Part shown: piece by piece, positions 12,780 to 21,771 of the stretch
Layout: each line of letters opens with the position of its first letter
Numbering within the stretch: position 1 is the first letter of the stretch
Source of the DNA: an uncultured Verrucomicrobia subdivision 3 bacterium
GTDB lineage: Bacteria > Verrucomicrobiota > Verrucomicrobiia > Limisphaerales > UBA11358
Length of the DNA: 34,067 bases
Reading direction: 5' to 3'
Assembly (NCBI GenBank): GCA_903827955.1
Contig: CAIKKJ010000202.1
Location: 1-34,067, forward strand
The notes under the pieces: generated by a model
Told to the model about the DNA's origin: nothing
Databases searched by the model: none
The model's input: the letters and a program-made list of their open reading frames with translations, nothing else
Program-made: the position numbers and the translations under genes

Positions 12780-13622
12780 TCATTTGGCGGTGCTGTGCTG
12801 CCATAGCCAGTCCGCGTCGCTCAGCCCCGGGTATTGCGTATTGCCGCCAGCGGTCAAGGTGATAAAAAATCCATCATGCCACCGGTGAAGCTCCGCATGG
12901 CCATCCGCATAGGCAAAGGAGGAACTCTGGTTGTGGAAGATGGCGGGCAAATCCCGCAAATTGTATTGCTGGCCCGGCGACCAGAAGAAACTGTCGTTTA
13001 TGCTGTCGGTTCGTTCATCCACGAAGATGAAAACATCCGTGGCCGGCCGTTTATGAAAACTGGTATCCTTGGGATAATACTCATTGCCACTGGTGAGAAC
13101 GGAGGCGCTGATGGTGGCAACCCCGTTGTTTAACATGTGGGGGGCAAGGTAACTATTCATCGTGCAGGAACGGACCCGTTCTGGCTGCCCCGGGGCGGCA
13201 AATTTATCCGCCGGACAGTGGTAAACTTTCGCGCTCTTCGTGTAGGAACCCAGTGAACCGTATTGCACATACATGTCGCCGATCAACTTGAGTTCATTGG
13301 TGTTGTCGGCGCTGGCGGTGAGACTCATTCTGCCGGCGACCCATGCGGGGCGCAACGGGTCTTCCCCCGGGTTGGGCGGGGCCCCGGCGCCATCCGGATT
13401 GGGGGCCCATTTGCCGCCATTGTCTCCAGCATACATGATATCCGCCAGACCCAGTTGCTTCATATTATTCATGCAGGATATCCCCTGGGCCTTCTGCTTC
13501 GCCTTGGTCAAGGCCGGCAGAAGCATCGCCGCCAGAATAGCGATGATGGCAATGACAACGAGCAGTTCGATCAGGGTAAAAGCATGGCGACGATGCTGCA
13601 CAAGGGCGTTACGAAGGGACAT
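12780..13622 (-). CDS. Type II secretion pseudopilin-like protein (prepilin-type N-terminus, ADGH C-terminus)
   Basis: The 280-residue product starts with a basic leader and the prepilin peptidase site [20 protein letters not shown], with Phe following Ala at the cleavage point and Glu at mature position +5. The hydrophobic helix runs on to [14 protein letters not shown]. The globular part ends with [15 protein letters not shown], the H-x9-DG-type signature of the planctomycete/verrucomicrobial pseudopilin family. An AGGA sequence stands 7 nt before the ATG, one of the few Shine-Dalgarno sites in the window. The gene sits between a two-component regulator and secreted polysaccharide-active proteins. 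A role in a type II-like secretion or surface-display system is plausible, but no other pilus or secretion gene is in view. Confidence 0.88.
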
Positions 13623-13658
13623 GATTCCATCCTAGTTCAAAGGCAGATGAAAAATCTA

Positions 13659-13695
13659 CTGACCAGAACTCACATTCTGACCATGACTAAAGTCA
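13659..13695. promoter_or_regulatory. Repeat-bearing leader of the pseudopilin gene, candidate regulator site
   Basis: The 148-bp gap between the response regulator and the pseudopilin contains CTGACCA twice (13659-13665 and 13677-13683, 18 bp apart), then TGACT-AA-AGTCA (13684-13695). These short repeats could be contact sites for the NarL-type regulator encoded just upstream. No confident -35/-10 pair was found, so this is a pattern and not a demonstrated promoter. Confidence 0.3.
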
Positions 13696-13770
13696 CATCG
13701 GAAACTTTATGACTCGCCACGAAATGTTCGGAAAACATCGCATAACGACGCCTCCGCCACTTGGAAAGCC

Positions 13771-14412
13771 TTAATCCAACTGAACCAATTGCCGTTTGAC
13801 CGCGATGGTTAGAGCTTGAGCGCGATCCACCGCCCCTAATTTGGTGAAGATATTGGTGAGATGATTTTTGACGGTTCCCTCGGAGATGCCCAGTTTGACC
13901 CCGATCTCTTTGTTGGCCTTGCCCTGCGCGATGAGCCGGAGCACTTCAATTTCTCGGGGCGAGATGTCGGATTGAATGCGCTGGTTCACACGATCAGAAA
14001 TTTCGCGCGGAAAATATTGTCCACCCGCATGGACGACGCGCACCGCTTGCAACATCTGTTCCAGTGGCATGCTTTTCAGGACATAGCCCGAGGCGCCGCT
14101 TTGGATGGCGCTAGTGATATCGTCCCCGCCACCATAACTGCTCAATACCACGATCCGGACTTCCGCTGCCTCCTGCCTGAGTTGTTTGATAATCTGAATG
14201 CCGTCCATGCCGGGCAAGCGGAGGTCCAACAGGACGACATCCGGCTTGTGGCGGCGATAATTTTCTAGCACCTGTCGGCCATCCGCCACCTCCGCGATCA
14301 CTTCCATGTCCGGTTCACCTTCGGCGGTGGTCTTCAATCCCACGCGCATCAAGATGTGGTCTTCCACCAGCATGACGCGGATTTTTTTGGACGATTCAGA
14401 TTTGGTGCTCAT
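13771..14412 (-). CDS. NarL/FixJ-family response regulator
   Basis: This 213-residue regulator has a CheY-like receiver (about 10-130) followed by a LuxR-type helix-turn-helix (about 145-208). The acidic pair VEDH is at 17-18, the phospho-acceptor is Asp63 in VVLLDLRLPGMDG, the switch Ser lies in VVLSSYGG, and the conserved Lys in YVLKSMP. The output domain shows the SPREIEVLRLIAQGKANKEI and GTVKNHLTNIFTKL signatures. I used ATG 14412 (MSTKSESSKK). Upstream in-frame codons lie inside the kinase gene. It starts 37 bp after the histidine kinase stop, so the two form one operon and a cognate pair. Targets are inferred to be the extracellular pectin genes immediately downstream. Confidence 0.93.
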   Translation of the reverse strand: MSTKSESSKKIRVMLVEDHILMRVGLKTTAEGEPDMEVIAEVADGRQVLENYRRHKPDVVLLDLRLPGMDGIQIIKQLRQEAAEVRIVVLSSYGGGDDITSAIQSGASGYVLKSMPLEQMLQAVRVVHAGGQYFPREISDRVNQRIQSDISPREIEVLRLIAQGKANKEIGVKLGISEGTVKNHLTNIFTKLGAVDRAQALTIAVKRQLVQLD

Positions 14413-14449
14413 TGCCGGTTTTAATTTAATCCTACCAAGCTCGTAAAGT

Positions 14450-17400
14450 TTAGTTTTTTCCGCACGGGACGACCAACTCGATGCGGGTTCCGCCGCCAAC
14501 TTTGCTCTCGATGGAAATGGTCGCGTGGATTTTTTGCGCCCGCACTTGCATGCCGTGCAGGCCAAAATGGCCGCCACTGGTGGAAACTTTGCCGGGAACA
14601 AATCCCGAACCATCATCCGCAATCGTCAGCGCCACTCGGTCCGCCTGATAGCGCAATTGAATCGCGATGTTCTGCGGATCGCCATGTTTGACGGCGTTAG
14701 TTATGGCTTCCTGTGCGATGCGCAACAAATGATGTTCCACGGTCGAGGTCAACGGCTGCACCACGCCGTCGATGTTCACCGTCAAGCGCGGGCGATCGCC
14801 GGCGCTGATGCCTTGCGAAACCCGCTGCAGCGCTCCGGGCAAATCAATATTTTCCAGCATGGGCGACTGCATATCCCAGACGGCATTCTGAACTTCCGTG
14901 CGGCTGTAGGTCGCCATGCTTTTGGCCATGTCCATGTGGCGCTTGGCCTGATCGGGGCGCTCAAAATGTTTCATTGCGGATTCTATCTGGATGACGATGG
15001 CGCTCAAACCCTGCTCGATGCTGTCATGGATTTCTCCCGCCAGACGGTCGCGCTCGGCGAGCGTCGCCGACACGCGGGTTTCCTTTTCAAGTTTGTTCAT
15101 GGCTTCATTTAGTTGAAGCGTCCGCCGCGCGACTTTGCGGCGGAGATAACGAATCCAGAGCATGGCTGCGATCAGCACGAAACTTAAAGAACCGATGACG
15201 AGGGCGGCATGTTTCCAAGCCCACCATGGCGGTCGCTCCAAGACCACTACGTCCCAGGGGTTCCGCAACAGAATGCCGAAGGAAGCCGCCGCTGATTCAC
15301 CATTGCCCCCCATCAAAAAATCCGACTTAACCCTTTCCAGCAACGATACGCCGGTCACTTGCAAACGGCTGCCCACAGGGATTTGTGGCAAGCGACCCGC
15401 CTTGCCCGCCGGTAGTTCTGCGCGGAAGATTCTTTGTCCGGATTGCAGTTCAAGCACTTGATTGCCGTCCAAAATTTTCTGCGCCAGCAACTCCCCCGAT
15501 AGCTGGACCACCTGCGCGCCATATCGACCGGAATACAATTCTTCAGAAGCGATCATCCGTGGCTCCGGCAGCGAAGCCTGACCCGTTTTAAGCACCAACG
15601 CCTGCATCAATGTCAACGAGCCCCGCTCCATTTCGGGGAATCCAACCACTTCCACCCGGTCGGAAACTTTAACATCAGCAGCGTCAAACTTTTTTACCTG
15701 CACACCTCCCGATTCATCCTGAACAATCATCAGTTTGTCGCCAACACTCGTGACCACGCCGCCGACTTTCACTCGATGGGAAGCGGTCGGCGACCGTGCA
15801 AAGCTGGCCACCTTGTCGATCGCAATGGCCGGCAGCGCAAACGGATCAGCCGGCGCGGGCTCCACCACTTCCAGAAATTCCATTGATGGTAAAAACAACA
15901 TTGCCCGGTCATCCCGGTAAATCAACACACCGCGAATGTTCACGAGCGTGTCGATCAACTGTTTGAACTGATCGGCGGAACCAGCGCCAACCCGAACCGG
16001 GATTTCTCCATTCCGCGTCTCCAGCAGCAAGACCTGATTGGTCTTGGCCTCACGAACAATGCCCTGACATTCCACCCAGCGATATTCGCCACGCCGGATT
16101 TGGGAGTTGGCCGCCGCGAGACTCAACGGCTCCGGCATCTGCGCTGATCCGAGAATCTGCATTCGATTCGGGTCCAGCGGCATCGGCCATTTTTCGTTCC
16201 GACTTTTGATTTCAAATTCGACCCGCTCACCCACGCGCGGGCTGTGGCGGCTGAACCGGGTGTTCATCCGCACCAACGCACTGGCCGATTCATCTTGTAT
16301 CACCAAATGATCTGCTCCCAGCGGAGGGCCGACGAACGTCACTACGCCGCGAACGATGATGGAGCCAACTCCTTCGCGCGGCCGCTCGTTCCGGTCAGGA
16401 ACAATCCGGGAAATGGGCGTAAGCACGGCCACATCTGTGAACTGCGCCGAAATCTTGGCTGGCTCGATCCGTTGCAGTTGATCCAAGCTGGTCACATCGG
16501 CAATGACGGGAGTTCCATTTTCCCATTTTATTGTTCCGACCAGATCCACGGTTTTCCCCACCTCGGCAATCAGGTTGGTTCCCGCCTGCACTTCAACCGT
16601 CGGATAAATCCGCTTCAGTTTCAGCCAGCAAGGCAAAGGCAATGAAATGGGGTGGACCATTTCGTCGCGCTCGCCCGGCAGTTGGCGGAAACGAAAGTTG
16701 ATGCCCCCGCTGGCATCCATTGTCAGGCTGACAAAGCGGTCACGCGCTTCGGCTGAGGCGCGGATCATGATCCCCGCCACCGCCCCATCTTCAGGAGATT
16801 TCAAATCAATCAACCGGGCAACGATCTCCGATTTATCGGCCAGCGTTTCACAATAAAAATGAACCCGCTCGAATCCGGAACCGAAACCCGTGCCGCCGCC
16901 TGCCACTTCGAGCAGGCCGCCGGATTTAACCGTCGTCTTTCCCGTCGGAACCGCGCTGGAAATCTCGGTGTCTTGCGCCCGCTCAGACACGCCGCTCACT
17001 TTGTCAAACTGCGCCGATGTCAATTCTCCTGATTTGAGGGAGCTGACGACCAGACCAACCGCTGCCGAATCGTCCATGGGAACATCCACCGGCGACGCGA
17101 TAGGCATCCAGGAAATTCCATTGGTCGAAATGAATGCGCCGAACCGAGAAGCTCCCTGAACCACCCACCGCCCTTGGCTATGCTGAAGAATCTTGCCGCG
17201 AATACGGATTTTTCTTCCGGCAGCCAGCAATGGATTCTCCGGGGCCAATTCGCCAACGGACAATGGTTTGATGTTTTGAAGTGTTTCAATGTCGGCACCG
17301 ATGGACGCGATTTCAGCCGCAGAGGGCACCCACAAGACTCCCAGCTTGCGCGTTCCATCTCCGACAAACACCGTTTCGCCGACGCCTCTGGCCCGCACCT

Positions 17401-18508
17401 TTTTGCCGGACAGTGCCGCGAGATTCAGTTGGACGCTCGCGGGCAATTTGAGTTTCAAGTGCTCGTCGTCTTGCGCCAATTCCAAGGACCAGCCATCACT
17501 CTCCTTGGCGGCGAAACTCACCACGCCCGCCACCTCGCACCAGCGGAAATTTTGCGATGGCGACAACAACTCTCCCACCTCAACCAAGAGGGGCTCAGGA
17601 AACGAAGCCTCCCCAAGAATATCGATATGGGGAGCGCTTGCCACAATTTCGCAGGTATCCATATCCCCGGTGGTCAACGGCTGAACCGACGCGAGGAGAT
17701 AGTCATTCCAATACTCACAAAAAATGCCGTTTGTTTGGGATGCGGCATAAGGAATCAGGTGGCGACCGTCAATCACCTCCAAATTCCTGCCAGGTATTTG
17801 CCAGGCCACAGCAATGGTGTTCTCGCCGCCGGCACGATGTTCCTGCATCACATCCAACAGGCACGGCTGCCCCGCCTGAAGTTGAATCACCTCAGAAGCT
17901 TGGGCCGGAAATTTATCCCACTGCAACGGCCTGGTCGGCTTGCCCGTCGGCACAGAGGCTATCTGGCGCAATGCGCTCGCGCTGGCATTGGTGCTCAACC
18001 AAAGTTCCGCCGAATTTTTGCCCGCAATCCAAAAGCGATAGTCACCCGAGACCGGTGGGATCAAATAACCGTGAATCCGCGCCACATAATAGCCACCCCA
18101 GTTCAGCGGTGTGGAAAGATTCGTTAACCATAGACTGGTGGATGGATTAAGGGGAAATTCTGGAAAGGCGCGAGCCCAACCCGCTGCTTTGTCCGCCCGC
18201 AACCGGATCGCTTGGCCGGGCCGCACATCCAGCGACTTCAAATCCGAATGGATGGCCACGCTGCCGTTAGCATTTTGCAAAACCAAAACTCCGCGAACTT
18301 TGTCCACCCGGGTCACCACGCCTTCCAATTGAACTGGCCTCTGTTGATTGGCCTGAATCCGCGAAAGACCCAAAAAGTAAGCGCTATTCGTGATGGGCAC
18401 CAAAGAATCGGGCAAGCCAGACCCGTCCGAAGTAACTTCGGCACCAAACAGCAAAATCATTTTGCTGTTCAACACCAAAAGCAGAAGCAGGCAGGCCAGT
18501 CGCGACAT
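14450..18508 (-). CDS. HisKA_3-type sensor histidine kinase with large PA14/OB-fold extracytoplasmic sensor
   Basis: This 1352-residue membrane kinase begins with an N-terminal signal or anchor (LACLLLLLVL). An OB-like strand set follows (58-105, EGVVTRVDKVRGVLVLQ), then a PA14 module (about 138-253, containing GYLIPPVSGDYRFWIAG and ENTIAVAWQ), known in other proteins as a glycan binder. Several further OB-like repeats (GVVTFVGPPLGADHLVIQDE, GGVVTSVGDKLMIVQDESGG) and a concanavalin-like stretch (GIMIRASAEARDRFVSL) come next. One transmembrane helix lies near 1096-1120 (ALVIGSLSFVLIAAMLWI). The cytoplasmic part has ERDRLAGEIHDSIEQG with phospho-acceptor His1161, AQEAITNAVKHG (N box) and IADDGSGF (G box). 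This is the NarX/DegS-like kinase layout. It probably senses an extracellular or periplasmic carbohydrate, plausibly a pectin fragment; the ligand is inference. The kinase call is firm. Confidence 0.92.
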   Translation of the reverse strand: MSRLACLLLLLVLNSKMILLFGAEVTSDGSGLPDSLVPITNSAYFLGLSRIQANQQRPVQLEGVVTRVDKVRGVLVLQNANGSVAIHSDLKSLDVRPGQAIRLRADKAAGWARAFPEFPLNPSTSLWLTNLSTPLNWGGYYVARIHGYLIPPVSGDYRFWIAGKNSAELWLSTNASASALRQIASVPTGKPTRPLQWDKFPAQASEVIQLQAGQPCLLDVMQEHRAGGENTIAVAWQIPGRNLEVIDGRHLIPYAASQTNGIFCEYWNDYLLASVQPLTTGDMDTCEIVASAPHIDILGEASFPEPLLVEVGELLSPSQNFRWCEVAGVVSFAAKESDGWSLELAQDDEHLKLKLPASVQLNLAALSGKKVRARGVGETVFVGDGTRKLGVLWVPSAAEIASIGADIETLQNIKPLSVGELAPENPLLAAGRKIRIRGKILQHSQGRWVVQGASRFGAFISTNGISWMPIASPVDVPMDDSAAVGLVVSSLKSGELTSAQFDKVSGVSERAQDTEISSAVPTGKTTVKSGGLLEVAGGGTGFGSGFERVHFYCETLADKSEIVARLIDLKSPEDGAVAGIMIRASAEARDRFVSLTMDASGGINFRFRQLPGERDEMVHPISLPLPCWLKLKRIYPTVEVQAGTNLIAEVGKTVDLVGTIKWENGTPVIADVTSLDQLQRIEPAKISAQFTDVAVLTPISRIVPDRNERPREGVGSIIVRGVVTFVGPPLGADHLVIQDESASALVRMNTRFSRHSPRVGERVEFEIKSRNEKWPMPLDPNRMQILGSAQMPEPLSLAAANSQIRRGEYRWVECQGIVREAKTNQVLLLETRNGEIPVRVGAGSADQFKQLIDTLVNIRGVLIYRDDRAMLFLPSMEFLEVVEPAPADPFALPAIAIDKVASFARSPTASHRVKVGGVVTSVGDKLMIVQDESGGVQVKKFDAADVKVSDRVEVVGFPEMERGSLTLMQALVLKTGQASLPEPRMIASEELYSGRYGAQVVQLSGELLAQKILDGNQVLELQSGQRIFRAELPAGKAGRLPQIPVGSRLQVTGVSLLERVKSDFLMGGNGESAAASFGILLRNPWDVVVLERPPWWAWKHAALVIGSLSFVLIAAMLWIRYLRRKVARRTLQLNEAMNKLEKETRVSATLAERDRLAGEIHDSIEQGLSAIVIQIESAMKHFERPDQAKRHMDMAKSMATYSRTEVQNAVWDMQSPMLENIDLPGALQRVSQGISAGDRPRLTVNIDGVVQPLTSTVEHHLLRIAQEAITNAVKHGDPQNIAIQLRYQADRVALTIADDGSGFVPGKVSTSGGHFGLHGMQVRAQKIHATISIESKVGGGTRIELVVPCGKN

Positions 18509-18792
18509 CGGTGCCGCATCTTATGGGCATGGACATAAGTTTAAAAAGACAAATTCTAACTAGATGCATCATTGCCGCCTACCGCTTATCTTATGTTCAG
18601 CACTCCATTTGAATCAGTTGCCACCGGTTGCCATATATGACTTTTTAGTCCCCATTGAGGTGGATTTTGGCGGATTGAAGGCAGGCAGGCGCGAAGCGCT
18701 ATGCACCCTTATTTGACAATGGTTTTATCAGATTTTGCGAGATGTATTTACTAAGAGTCAGGCGAATGAATGCTGTCCCAACGGGATTTCAT

Positions 18793-18863
18793 CCTTCAGC
18801 CCAGGGTTGCGCGGCACGCGCCACCCTGGGTCAACGCCCCAAACCTTTCCTCAACCCTGAAGG
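18793..18863. repeat. Palindromic interspersed repeat (REP-like)
   Basis: CCCAGGGTTGCGCG (18800-18813) pairs with CGCGCCACCCTGGG (18817-18830) around a 3-nt loop, giving a 14-bp stem with one mismatch. An outer pair CCTTCAG (18793-18799) and CTGAAGG (18857-18863) frames it. The nested arrangement resembles palindromic repeats scattered between genes in planctomycete and verrucomicrobial genomes, a comparison from memory. No U-run follows on either side, so it is not a terminator. Confidence 0.7.
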
Positions 18864-18978
18864 CGGTTGCCTCGCCTCTGCCAGAGCTACCAATCGGCCC
18901 GTTTTTGCAAAATTTACCGGTCTCCGACCCTTTTCGGCGGTTTTTAATGCTATTATCGGCCAACCGCCGTCCCGCTCG

Positions 18979-19209
18979 GCCAAAACGACGGTAGTTTGGG
19001 TGCTTGGCGATACCCGACTGGGCAAAACGACGGTCATTTCGGCATTCCGGCAACGCGGGCGGGCAAAACGACGGTCGTTTGGGCGCTTGGAGACACTCGG
19101 GACGGCAAAACGACGCTCGTTTCGGGGCTTGGAGATGCTTGTCGGGGTGAAATGACGGTCGTTTCGGCAATCCGGCGGCGCGGCAGGGTAAAATGACGGT
19201 CGTTTTGGG
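18979..19209. repeat. Tandem array of 41-42-bp units, each with a 15-bp palindrome
   Basis: Units start at 18979, 19021, 19062, 19104, 19146 and 19187 (a partial last unit), with steps of 42, 41, 42, 42 and 41 bp. Each opens with about 22 bp of conserved sequence built on AAACGAC-G-GTCGTTT, a 7+1+7 palindrome in the consensus; single changes break it in several units. About 20 bp of more variable sequence follow. The variable parts fall in two classes: class A containing GCTTGG (units 1, 3, 4) and class B containing ATTCCGG or AATCCGG (units 2, 5). The period is four turns of B-DNA, so the palindromes face the same side of the helix. The similar spacers argue against CRISPR. Confidence 0.88.
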
Positions 19210-19518
19210 TGAGGAGCAACTCCACCCTACGAATTTTTTATCCGGCAGAGCAGCACCACGCCGCTTTCGCACACACGAGACAGATGGAAATCCCCAAGCT
19301 CAACGTCCGCCTGAAAGCGGTGTCGCCGCTCCCGCTCTGCCACCGCACTCCAAGACGCTTCGCGTTATCGGAGGCCACAGCCATTCGCGCCAGCGTCCTG
19401 AACTGCGGCGGCCCTCCGCCGCTTTTCTTCAAACCCGTCCGTCGGCGGGAAGTTTGGGCAGAGGAGCGCTTCCACCCTGCCAATCTTTATCCGGTAGGGC
19501 AGAGCTGCCGCTCTGCCC
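19203..19518. repeat. Diverged direct repeat pair with terminal hairpin
   Basis: Copies at 19203-19260 and 19453-19510 share TTTGGG, GAGGAGC, TCCACCCT, TTTATCCGG and AGAGC in the same order, 250 bp apart. The second copy leads into the hairpin GGGCAGAG-CTGCCG-CTCTGCCC (19497-19518). Between the copies is GCGGCGG-CCCT-CCGCCGC (19405-19422), followed by TTTTCTTC. The first copy begins inside the last unit of the 42-bp array, so the two repeat systems may be parts of one composite element. Confidence 0.6.
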
Positions 19519-19554: not shown

Positions 19555-21771
19555 TCACTGCTGCGACTGATTTTGAATCGGGCTGTTCGTGGGAATCGAT
19601 GACGTTCCGTTTTCCCCGGGAGCCATGGTCGGGCTGACACTATTTGGGTTCCGGAGAAACGTGCTCCACGGCAATGGAATGAGTTTTTCAGGCAGCGAAT
19701 CCAGACCGTTGATTCCGTTCCAAGCCGCGGACCAATGGCTTTGAAACCACGCGGCGGCGATCGCTTCCAAAGCCGCGCCAAACATTTCGGGATGTTGACC
19801 GGCGAACTGCGTGGCCGCCTGCGGATCTTGGCGCGCCCAGTTGGCGACGACTTGGTTGATGGCGGCCACCTGCCCGGCCGCGGCTGGCTGGGCCAATGCG
19901 GGCAAAAATTTTTCCAGCGCGTGCGTCCGGAAGTCGGTGTCAGGCGTTTCGCAAACCCAGTTGAAGGCGCCGGGCAAATCGGTCTGCATCAAACGATCCA
20001 GCACGGCGAGCTGAAAGTAACTGCGCTGCGGTTCGTTCACGATGATGGCGGACGCATTCAGGGCTTCGGGAATTTCTGCACGCGAAATGGCGGCGGCCAG
20101 TTGATCAAAACTGCGACACCGGTTTGCATCCTGCTCCGCGCCGCCAATTTTTTCCAGCGCCGCGCGAATCTGTGACTGATTCAACGTGCCGGCGGCGACG
20201 TCAAATTTCCCGGCCGCCTCCGCCGTCGCCGTGGCCAGGGCTTGGCTGGCGAGTTGACGTTGCTCGCTGACCTTCTGCGCCGCCAGTCCCGCCGCCAGCA
20301 AAGCCAGCACCGCCAGGACGGCAAAAACCTGGTTGAGGCGGCGCGCCGTCCGGCTTTGGTTTTGGGTTGGCTGAACCTGATTGCGGGCGGTGTCGATCTG
20401 GCGTTGCGCGTCGCGCGTCTGGTTTTGAATTTCCTGAATTTTGCTTTGCGCGTCGCGAACTTCATTGCGCGCGGCGGCCAGCTGACTTTGCGCGGATTGA
20501 GCCTGGTTCTGCCAGACTTGAACTTCGTTTTGCGCGGCTAACAATTTATTCTGCGCATCGTGAGCGTCCTGGCGAGTAGCGGCCAGCTGGCTTTGAATGT
20601 TCTGCACCTGACTCTGCGCCGCCAGCAATTGGTTTTGCGCGGCCTGAGTTTTTTCAATCTGGTCGGGCGCGACGGACGGCAAACTCTGTATTTCCAGAAT
20701 TGTATTTTGGGCGATGCGCGCCTGATGACGGGCTGCTTCCAATTGGTTCTGGGCCTCGCGCGCTTGCGCTTGCGCTTCCGAAGCTTTGGTTTCGGCGGCC
20801 TGCGCGCGGTGGCGGACGGCCTCCAATTGAGTTTGCGTGTCGCGAACCTGGTTTTGAAATTCCTGAAGCTGTTGGCGAGCGTCGCGCGCCTGCTGCTGCG
20901 CGGCTAAAGCTTGAGCTTGCGCGGCTTGAATCTGGCCATGAACGTCGCGCGGCAGATTCTGGGACGCCAACGCCTGCGCCTGCGCCGCGCGCGCCTCGCG
21001 CTGGGCGTCCTGCAATTGCCGCCGGACTTCCTCGACTTGATTCAAGGCTTCGCGCGCCTGATGTTGGGCGGCGGCAAAATCAAAGAAGTGACGCCGCTGC
21101 TCACGCCACCACAGCCCGTTGAAGCCAACGCCAAGCAGCAAGGCGATCAGTTGGATTTTAGCCATCTCCAGATCGGCTTCGGCGTTGCGGTCATCTTTGG
21201 CGAGAATTTCCCGCTTCTCCGCGCCATGCCGGGCGTCAACGAAAATAAATTTCCCGGCGCGCCGGGCGGTATCCAAAGTTCCGTCCGGCGCTACCGGATG
21301 CCGCAGCGCGGGAACGAAACACTCCGCTGACGTTGGGTCACCAGACTGGTGGTCATCACTGACGTTGGGTTCGCCGGCAATGACGACGGGCAAAATATTT
21401 TTGTCGCGCCCGAGCTGCTTGAAATAACGGACGACTTCATTGACCTGCTCACTTTGGGCCGAACGCGGCGAACAGATCACGATCAGACATCTTGCTCGCT
21501 CCAAGGCCGTGCGCGTCTCCGCGCTCAAGGTGGCAGCCGCGGACGAGGCTGCTTCACTCCGGAAAACCGGATCGATCCGCTCGGGAATGTTTTCGCCACG
21601 CCCATTGATCTGGCCGACGAATTCGGCGGGGATTGAAAAAGCCTTCAGCGCGGCATGCAGCCAATCACCCCAGCACAAGCTGCCCGCAGCCGGTGGATCC
21701 GCGCGTTGCGCGCGATTGTCGGGTTCGCTGTAACTAAGGAACGCCCAATATTTATTTTCGTTTTCGGTCAT
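19555..21771 (-). CDS. TIR-domain membrane protein with long heptad coiled coil
   Basis: This 738-residue protein begins with a TIR domain (about 1-180): KYWAFLSYSEPDN, WGDWLHAALKAFSIP, CLIVICSPRSAQSEQVNEVV. Glu in the last motif sits where TIR NADases carry their catalytic Glu, though alignment is needed. A hydrophobic segment (about 204-220, LIALLLGVGFNGLWW) is followed by an Ala/Gln-rich coiled coil (about 228-470) in almost unbroken heptads (AQNQLLA, AQSQVQN, IQSQLAA). A transmembrane helix (about 478-498, VFAVLAVLALLAAGLAA) precedes a C-terminal helical region with WARQDPQAATQFAG, like DPxAA repeats common in Verrucomicrobiota. No effector partner is adjacent. It could be a signalling scaffold or a stress or defence sensor; the sequence does not decide. 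Confidence 0.8.
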   Translation of the reverse strand: MTENENKYWAFLSYSEPDNRAQRADPPAAGSLCWGDWLHAALKAFSIPAEFVGQINGRGENIPERIDPVFRSEAASSAAATLSAETRTALERARCLIVICSPRSAQSEQVNEVVRYFKQLGRDKNILPVVIAGEPNVSDDHQSGDPTSAECFVPALRHPVAPDGTLDTARRAGKFIFVDARHGAEKREILAKDDRNAEADLEMAKIQLIALLLGVGFNGLWWREQRRHFFDFAAAQHQAREALNQVEEVRRQLQDAQREARAAQAQALASQNLPRDVHGQIQAAQAQALAAQQQARDARQQLQEFQNQVRDTQTQLEAVRHRAQAAETKASEAQAQAREAQNQLEAARHQARIAQNTILEIQSLPSVAPDQIEKTQAAQNQLLAAQSQVQNIQSQLAATRQDAHDAQNKLLAAQNEVQVWQNQAQSAQSQLAAARNEVRDAQSKIQEIQNQTRDAQRQIDTARNQVQPTQNQSRTARRLNQVFAVLAVLALLAAGLAAQKVSEQRQLASQALATATAEAAGKFDVAAGTLNQSQIRAALEKIGGAEQDANRCRSFDQLAAAISRAEIPEALNASAIIVNEPQRSYFQLAVLDRLMQTDLPGAFNWVCETPDTDFRTHALEKFLPALAQPAAAGQVAAINQVVANWARQDPQAATQFAGQHPEMFGAALEAIAAAWFQSHWSAAWNGINGLDSLPEKLIPLPWSTFLRNPNSVSPTMAPGENGTSSIPTNSPIQNQSQQ

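Follow-up and report, generated by a model that had tools for sequence, protein, structure and literature searches.

A phased palindromic array in a Verrucomicrobia subdivision 3 genome and similar, mostly intergenic arrays of differing sequence in its relatives

Why would a short stretch between two bacterial genes hold six palindromes at a nearly constant distance from each other? The stretch lies in the window, the whole 34,067-bp piece of DNA analyzed here, which is contig C202 of the 3.86-Mb draft genome of a freshwater-type Verrucomicrobia bacterium. A first-pass annotation had described six units of 41–42 bp sharing a 15-bp palindrome, and our analysis confirmed that this array is real. 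The palindrome AAACGACNGTCGTTT, with 0–1 mismatch, opens each of the six units at steps of 42, 41, 42, 42, and 41 bp, and the last unit extends to approximately position 19232 (Table 1). Dinucleotide shuffles contained 0.02 such sites on average and never six. At ≤1 mismatch, these six were the only sites in the whole genome of the host, and a DNA search of that genome found no second copy of the array. The mean column majority was 0.94 in the palindrome versus 0.64 in the spacer (p = 3e-6). The unit profile was palindromic when compared with column permutations (p = 0.0005), and the palindrome runs to a 1-bp centre without a hairpin loop.

Table 1. Coordinates of the array, its units, its predicted curvature peak, and the gene family repeatedly found downstream of such arrays
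Feature	Position	Strand	Description
Whole phased palindrome array, 6 units	18983..19232	.	250 bp, between two genes
Unit 1	18983..19024	.	42 bp, spacer class A; palindrome 18983-18997 AAACGACGGTAGTTT
Unit 2	19025..19065	.	41 bp, spacer class B; palindrome 19025-19039 AAACGACGGTCATTT
Unit 3	19066..19107	.	42 bp, spacer class A; palindrome 19066-19080 AAACGACGGTCGTTT, exact
Unit 4	19108..19149	.	42 bp, spacer class A; palindrome 19108-19122 AAACGACGCTCGTTT
Unit 5	19150..19190	.	41 bp, spacer class B; palindrome 19150-19164 AAATGACGGTCGTTT
Unit 6	19191..19232	.	taken as 42 bp; palindrome 19191-19205 AAATGACGGTCGTTT; spacer divergent
Strongest predicted curvature of the window	19005..19173	.	168-bp frame centred at 19089
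'MASN' family members	L029:4623-5549, L268:1501-2424, and homologs		repeatedly preceded by a phased array

The spacers had been described as alternating between two classes. Two classes were indeed found, and unit 6 diverges from both. Strict alternation was not found, as the order is A-B-A-A-B-x. Because of this order, TRF called the array (18977-19209) as a 125-bp super-period of three units. The mixing of 41- and 42-bp units and the lack of a codon-like column pattern agreed with the earlier statement that no reading frame is kept. The units stand head to tail, are longer than approximately 10 bp, and lie outside genes, so that, of the three readings put forward in the annotation (binding platform, chromosome-organising element, and minisatellite), the term minisatellite (intergenic, VNTR-like) was right as a description. 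A CRISPR array, whose repeats are identical and at least about 23 bp long and whose spacers are unique, was rejected; here a 15-bp near-identical core is combined with two related spacer classes.

The genes on both sides were compared with those of relatives. The kinase ATG (18508) is 475 bp from the array, close to the 470 bp given in the annotation. In G068, 'uncultured Verrucomicrobia subdivision 3 bacterium KT_bin-0898', there is a 95% identical counterpart of the kinase/regulator stretch (12796-18373), with a response-regulator gene that is 99% identical. Identity ends sharply at 18373, inside the kinase 5' region, and this stretch looks horizontally exchanged. The relative's copy adjoins a tRNA-like sequence. 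No array was present upstream of the kinase cluster in G068, and the tie to the sensor kinase was rejected. Orthologs of the TIR-like gene, which lies on the other side, occur in many species. None of the relatives with enough flanking sequence had an array beside it, and this tie was rejected as well. Therefore, the array is conserved with neither neighbour, and it is missing from its position in relatives. Repeats of 21 bp in the TIR-like gene (19555-21771) encode a long coiled coil. Other repeats had been noted near the array. Both flanks (18611-18884 and 19244-19430) matched dispersed repeats that many genomes of the genus carry, and the array is flanked by two families of them. A search next to the array gave no sigma-70-like promoter. 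Pfam analysis of the main neighbours returned kinase, regulator, TIR-like, Rex-like, ABC transporter, and other domains. No parA/parB-like gene was found among these neighbours, a subset of the ORFs.

The palindrome was then searched for at 41–42-bp spacing in the host and related genomes, as the annotation had proposed. It recurred at a 41–42-bp step or its multiples, in otherwise different sequence, in three other species of the same genus (G010, G019, and G027), and weaker variants were present in G013. A second, array-specific palindrome often lay half a unit from the shared one in the arrays of these congeners. The annotation had allowed that the palindrome might be confined to this site with random unit lengths elsewhere, or that the units might be fragments of a decayed gene or transposon. 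The recurrence at 41–42 bp was contrary to the first, and neither a coding signature nor a transposon origin was found.

Arrays of any sequence were surveyed in sampled stretches of genomes. Eighteen of the 20 strong arrays in 344 kb of G019 had a lag of 21/42/63 or 41–42 bp; most of these arrays were not targeted by the pattern search, and their density is inflated because several regions were chosen for pattern-search matches. G040, from another family of the same order, was picked because two arrays lay on the first of its contigs to be sampled, and every array of measurable lag in 319 kb of it had 41–43-bp units. The other congeners had a handful of such arrays in 399 kb. In 223 kb of the host genome, one weak possible 21-bp repeat was seen and none at the survey threshold. 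No arrays like these were found in most other families sampled. Thus, mostly intergenic arrays are numerous in several Verrucomicrobia subdivision 3 genomes, with approximately 21-bp units in one species and 41–43-bp units in another family. The window array, with its palindromic 41–42-bp units, belongs to this class. No account of the class was found in the literature searched, which comprised open-licence papers.

The arrays share symmetry and unit length rather than sequence. Most have units unrelated to those of the others, and a given unit sequence is specific to one array or small family. Palindromicity exceeded that of column permutations in 11/15 G040 arrays and 11/16 G019 arrays (Fisher 3e-15 and 2e-14, respectively), in 4/5 gene-associated arrays, and in none of six coding 21-bp repeats. 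Codon periodicity in column entropy was absent in noncoding arrays and present in the coding coiled-coil control. For a few arrays translation is possible: the one at L094:12012-12278 continues into a long frame. In 24 noncoding 21-bp arrays (5578 bp), 1345 mismatches to the consensus were accompanied by a single phase shift, with 4 of the 24 coming from a spacing-anchored pattern search and hence being biased to intact spacing. Arrays simulated at an indel/substitution ratio of 0.03–0.12 and passed through the same pipeline had 9–21 phase shifts per 1345 mismatches. Compensatory covariation of the palindromes gave no general signal across arrays.

Several individual loci had features of their own. 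L353:10798-11178 and L356:9201-9388 of G040 carry the same 42-bp unit family at two loci with a shared flank. Their unit-junction palindrome seems to have changed on both sides together in several units, with the general covariation test not being significant. L091:2654-2863 has ten 21-bp units, each a constant 12-bp AAGCTCCCGCTT plus 9 freely varying bases, and superficially resembles a repeat/spacer array. At L088:1-2681, a Cas9-like frame (identified by eye, with a RuvC-like start) adjoins a 21-bp array that is not CRISPR-like. L108:13248-18433 is a 312-bp tandem repeat of 16.5 copies with one frame open throughout, as in coding sequence.

Some arrays lie repeatedly upstream of the same genes. 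An uncharacterised gene family encoding proteins of approximately 308 aa that start with MASN or MGSN, often in several copies per genome, has at least 10 copies in eight species with an array ending within about 200 bp upstream of the start. The units of these arrays are mostly unlike in sequence. This 'MASN' family had no Pfam or NCBIfam match. At L262:1-750, a 210-bp (10 × 21) tandem repeat, 94% alike, precedes one copy of the family. The window contains no homolog of it, and the window array was rejected as a 'MASN' cassette remnant. Arrays of unrelated sequence were also found upstream of uvrA in three species (30 loci) and upstream of rlmN in two species (30 loci), both genes being named by eye from sequence. 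The G019 arrays had no clear orientation preference in a simple ORF-based analysis of context.

Curvature was predicted with two published wedge models and a simple AA-wedge model, all with approximate parameters. In all three models, the window array was more curved than each of 100 versions with its unit permuted, and a change of ±1 bp per unit lowered its predicted curvature. By two of the models it was the most curved DNA of the window, with a peak of 0.371 versus 0.172 for the next peak and a window mean of 0.046 (sd 0.035). The array thus counts as intrinsically curved by prediction, above both the genomic background and unit-permuted sequence. Among arrays of approximately 41.5 bp, 14/16 were at or above the 98th percentile of their own permutations. 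Intergenic regions of G019 with an array were predicted to be more curved than array-free ones (p = 4e-7), also when the latter were restricted to ≥300 bp (p = 8e-5). The 21-bp arrays were just mildly above permuted ones, and several 42–43-bp arrays of G040 were predicted to be straight. The predictions suggested that curvature is strong in the window array and many of its relatives and is not class-wide, and curvature as the sole cause of the class was rejected on the straight G040 arrays. High predicted curvature was also seen around position 7601 of L110 and at L065:14423-14583, at or near degenerate ~21-bp repeats missed by stricter tandem-repeat settings.

These results tentatively favour, as the best of the explanations considered though somewhat short of probable, the reading that the window array is one of a set of noncoding, mostly intergenic, fast-evolving phased palindromic minisatellites kept as double-stranded DNA architecture. 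Unit sequences would be renewed by unequal exchange or slippage, and selection would purge changes that move dyads off one face of the helix. What would be kept over time is dyad symmetry together with a near-whole number of helical turns (two for ~21 bp and about four for 41–43 bp), while the letters of the units would be largely free to change. The array would then line up its two-fold sites along one face of the helix, and the DNA here is predicted to be curved as well. Dimeric nucleoid or regulatory proteins might be loaded cooperatively on the dyads; alternatively, the array might provide a fixed bend or a supercoil apex near promoters. The reader of the geometry could be a nucleoid protein, a regulator, or DNA topology itself. 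We infer that proteins may bind at the array and that neighbouring genes may be affected. The helical repeat is matched less closely by the 43-bp units and by one 22-bp array, which count against the architectural reading.

The main rival is that the arrays have no function. A repeat-making process of the clade, by slippage or rolling-circle-like copying of palindrome-prone DNA, would emit ~21- and ~42-bp units with no later selection. We consider this a serious but less likely explanation. It accords with the gain and loss of arrays, with differences between the arrays that different species carry at one locus, and with a very uneven density that includes the array-free 223 kb of the host genome at the survey threshold. 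Some G040 unit families occur at two loci, like spreading repeats, and many G040 arrays consist of recent units that are 83–95% alike. However, neutral simulations gave 9–21 phase shifts against the one counted in the diverged arrays, the palindrome of the window array is kept while its spacers diverge, and arrays of unlike sequence recur before the same gene family.

The architectural reading can be taken further. A structure-reading, largely sequence-independent dimeric protein could form filaments on dyads lying on one face. The genome would keep dozens to hundreds of arrays that drift freely in sequence and pass on nothing but their spacing and symmetry. This would be a chromatin-like code held in phase and not in letters, and we regard it as unlikely.

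More doubtful is a protein dedicated to AAACGACNGTCGTTT in this array, either a dimeric regulator or a centromere-like binder, which would recognise the site as SopB/ParB does the repeats of sopC. The centromere sopC/parS of the F plasmid has twelve tandem 43-bp repeats with 16-bp inverted repeats (PMC6238139). The 41–42-bp units and 15-bp palindrome of the window array come close to this architecture, and both unit lengths are near four helical turns. The far better conservation of the palindrome than of the spacer and its reuse in phased arrays of other species also agree with such a binder. On the other hand, sopC/parS is a plasmid partition site with cognate SopB, whereas no partition genes were present among the tested neighbours of the window array; the site has no other copy in the genome, and, unlike sopC/parS, the arrays of the clade vary in sequence. 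The palindromes of most other arrays are unrelated to this one, so a single dedicated regulator cannot account for the class. For the window array alone it is possible, and with it a sequence-specific form of the binding platform of the first-pass annotation.

An RNA-level element is very unlikely. In that case, the transcribed array would fold into tandem hairpins that control an mRNA or yield small RNAs, and its folding energy was below that of dinucleotide shuffles on both strands (z about −3.9). This excess is equal on both strands, as for any palindrome, and the predicted fold pairs distant units instead of forming local hairpins, which makes an RNA function less likely. The 1-bp centre leaves no loop, palindrome variants in the window are not compensated, and there was no Rfam match (E ≤ 1). 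The annotation had placed any selection on DNA or RNA structure; dyad symmetry, length constancy, and predicted curvature argue for the DNA part, and its interpretation overall was partly supported. A decayed coding repeat (heptads, 21 bp being 7 codons) or a mobile-element remnant such as REP/BIME or MITE can be practically dismissed: coding 21-bp repeats do lie next door in the TIR-like coiled coil and dispersed repeats on both flanks, but the 41/42 mixing breaks frames, the third-position signal of the coding control is absent from noncoding arrays, the coding controls are not palindromic, and the array is single-copy in the genome, so that coding heptads were rejected on the frame and entropy tests and on palindromicity.

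Other known repeats resemble the arrays in part. BrickBuilt of Porphyromonas gingivalis is a minisatellite/MITE with a 23-nt unit, many intergenic loci, and promoter activity (PMC4596501). It is likewise an intergenic tandem repeat with a short fixed unit, but it has one shared sequence, a leader and tail, and terminal inverted repeats (PMC4596501), whereas the clade arrays mostly have their own sequences, palindromic units of ~21 or 41–43 bp, and no common ends that we saw. REP elements, which like BIMEs are short intergenic palindromes that are sometimes clustered, share a genome-wide consensus with a GTAG or CGTC tag at the end of the palindrome (PMC3733652). The window palindrome is confined to one array in its own genome (≤1 mismatch), and inspection of the six units found no such tag at the palindrome end. 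The array class thus lacks one defining feature each of sopC, BrickBuilt, and REP. The Mannheimia leukotoxin promoter has 2–3 copies of a 10-bp phased A-tract with inherent curvature (PMC2697988). Like the window array with its predicted curvature, it is a curved tandem repeat in helix register upstream of a gene; the difference is that it consists of A-tracts at one promoter, and here a clade-wide class has longer palindromic units.

In these arrays, unit length and dyad symmetry recur across species and in two families, and the sequence does not. Intergenic repeats in bacteria usually belong to families with a shared sequence. If the arrays are selected, they would be a cis-element conserved in shape and not in sequence, of a kind missed by alignment-based searches. 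The class offers a testable case for selection on DNA curvature or helical phase in bacteria.
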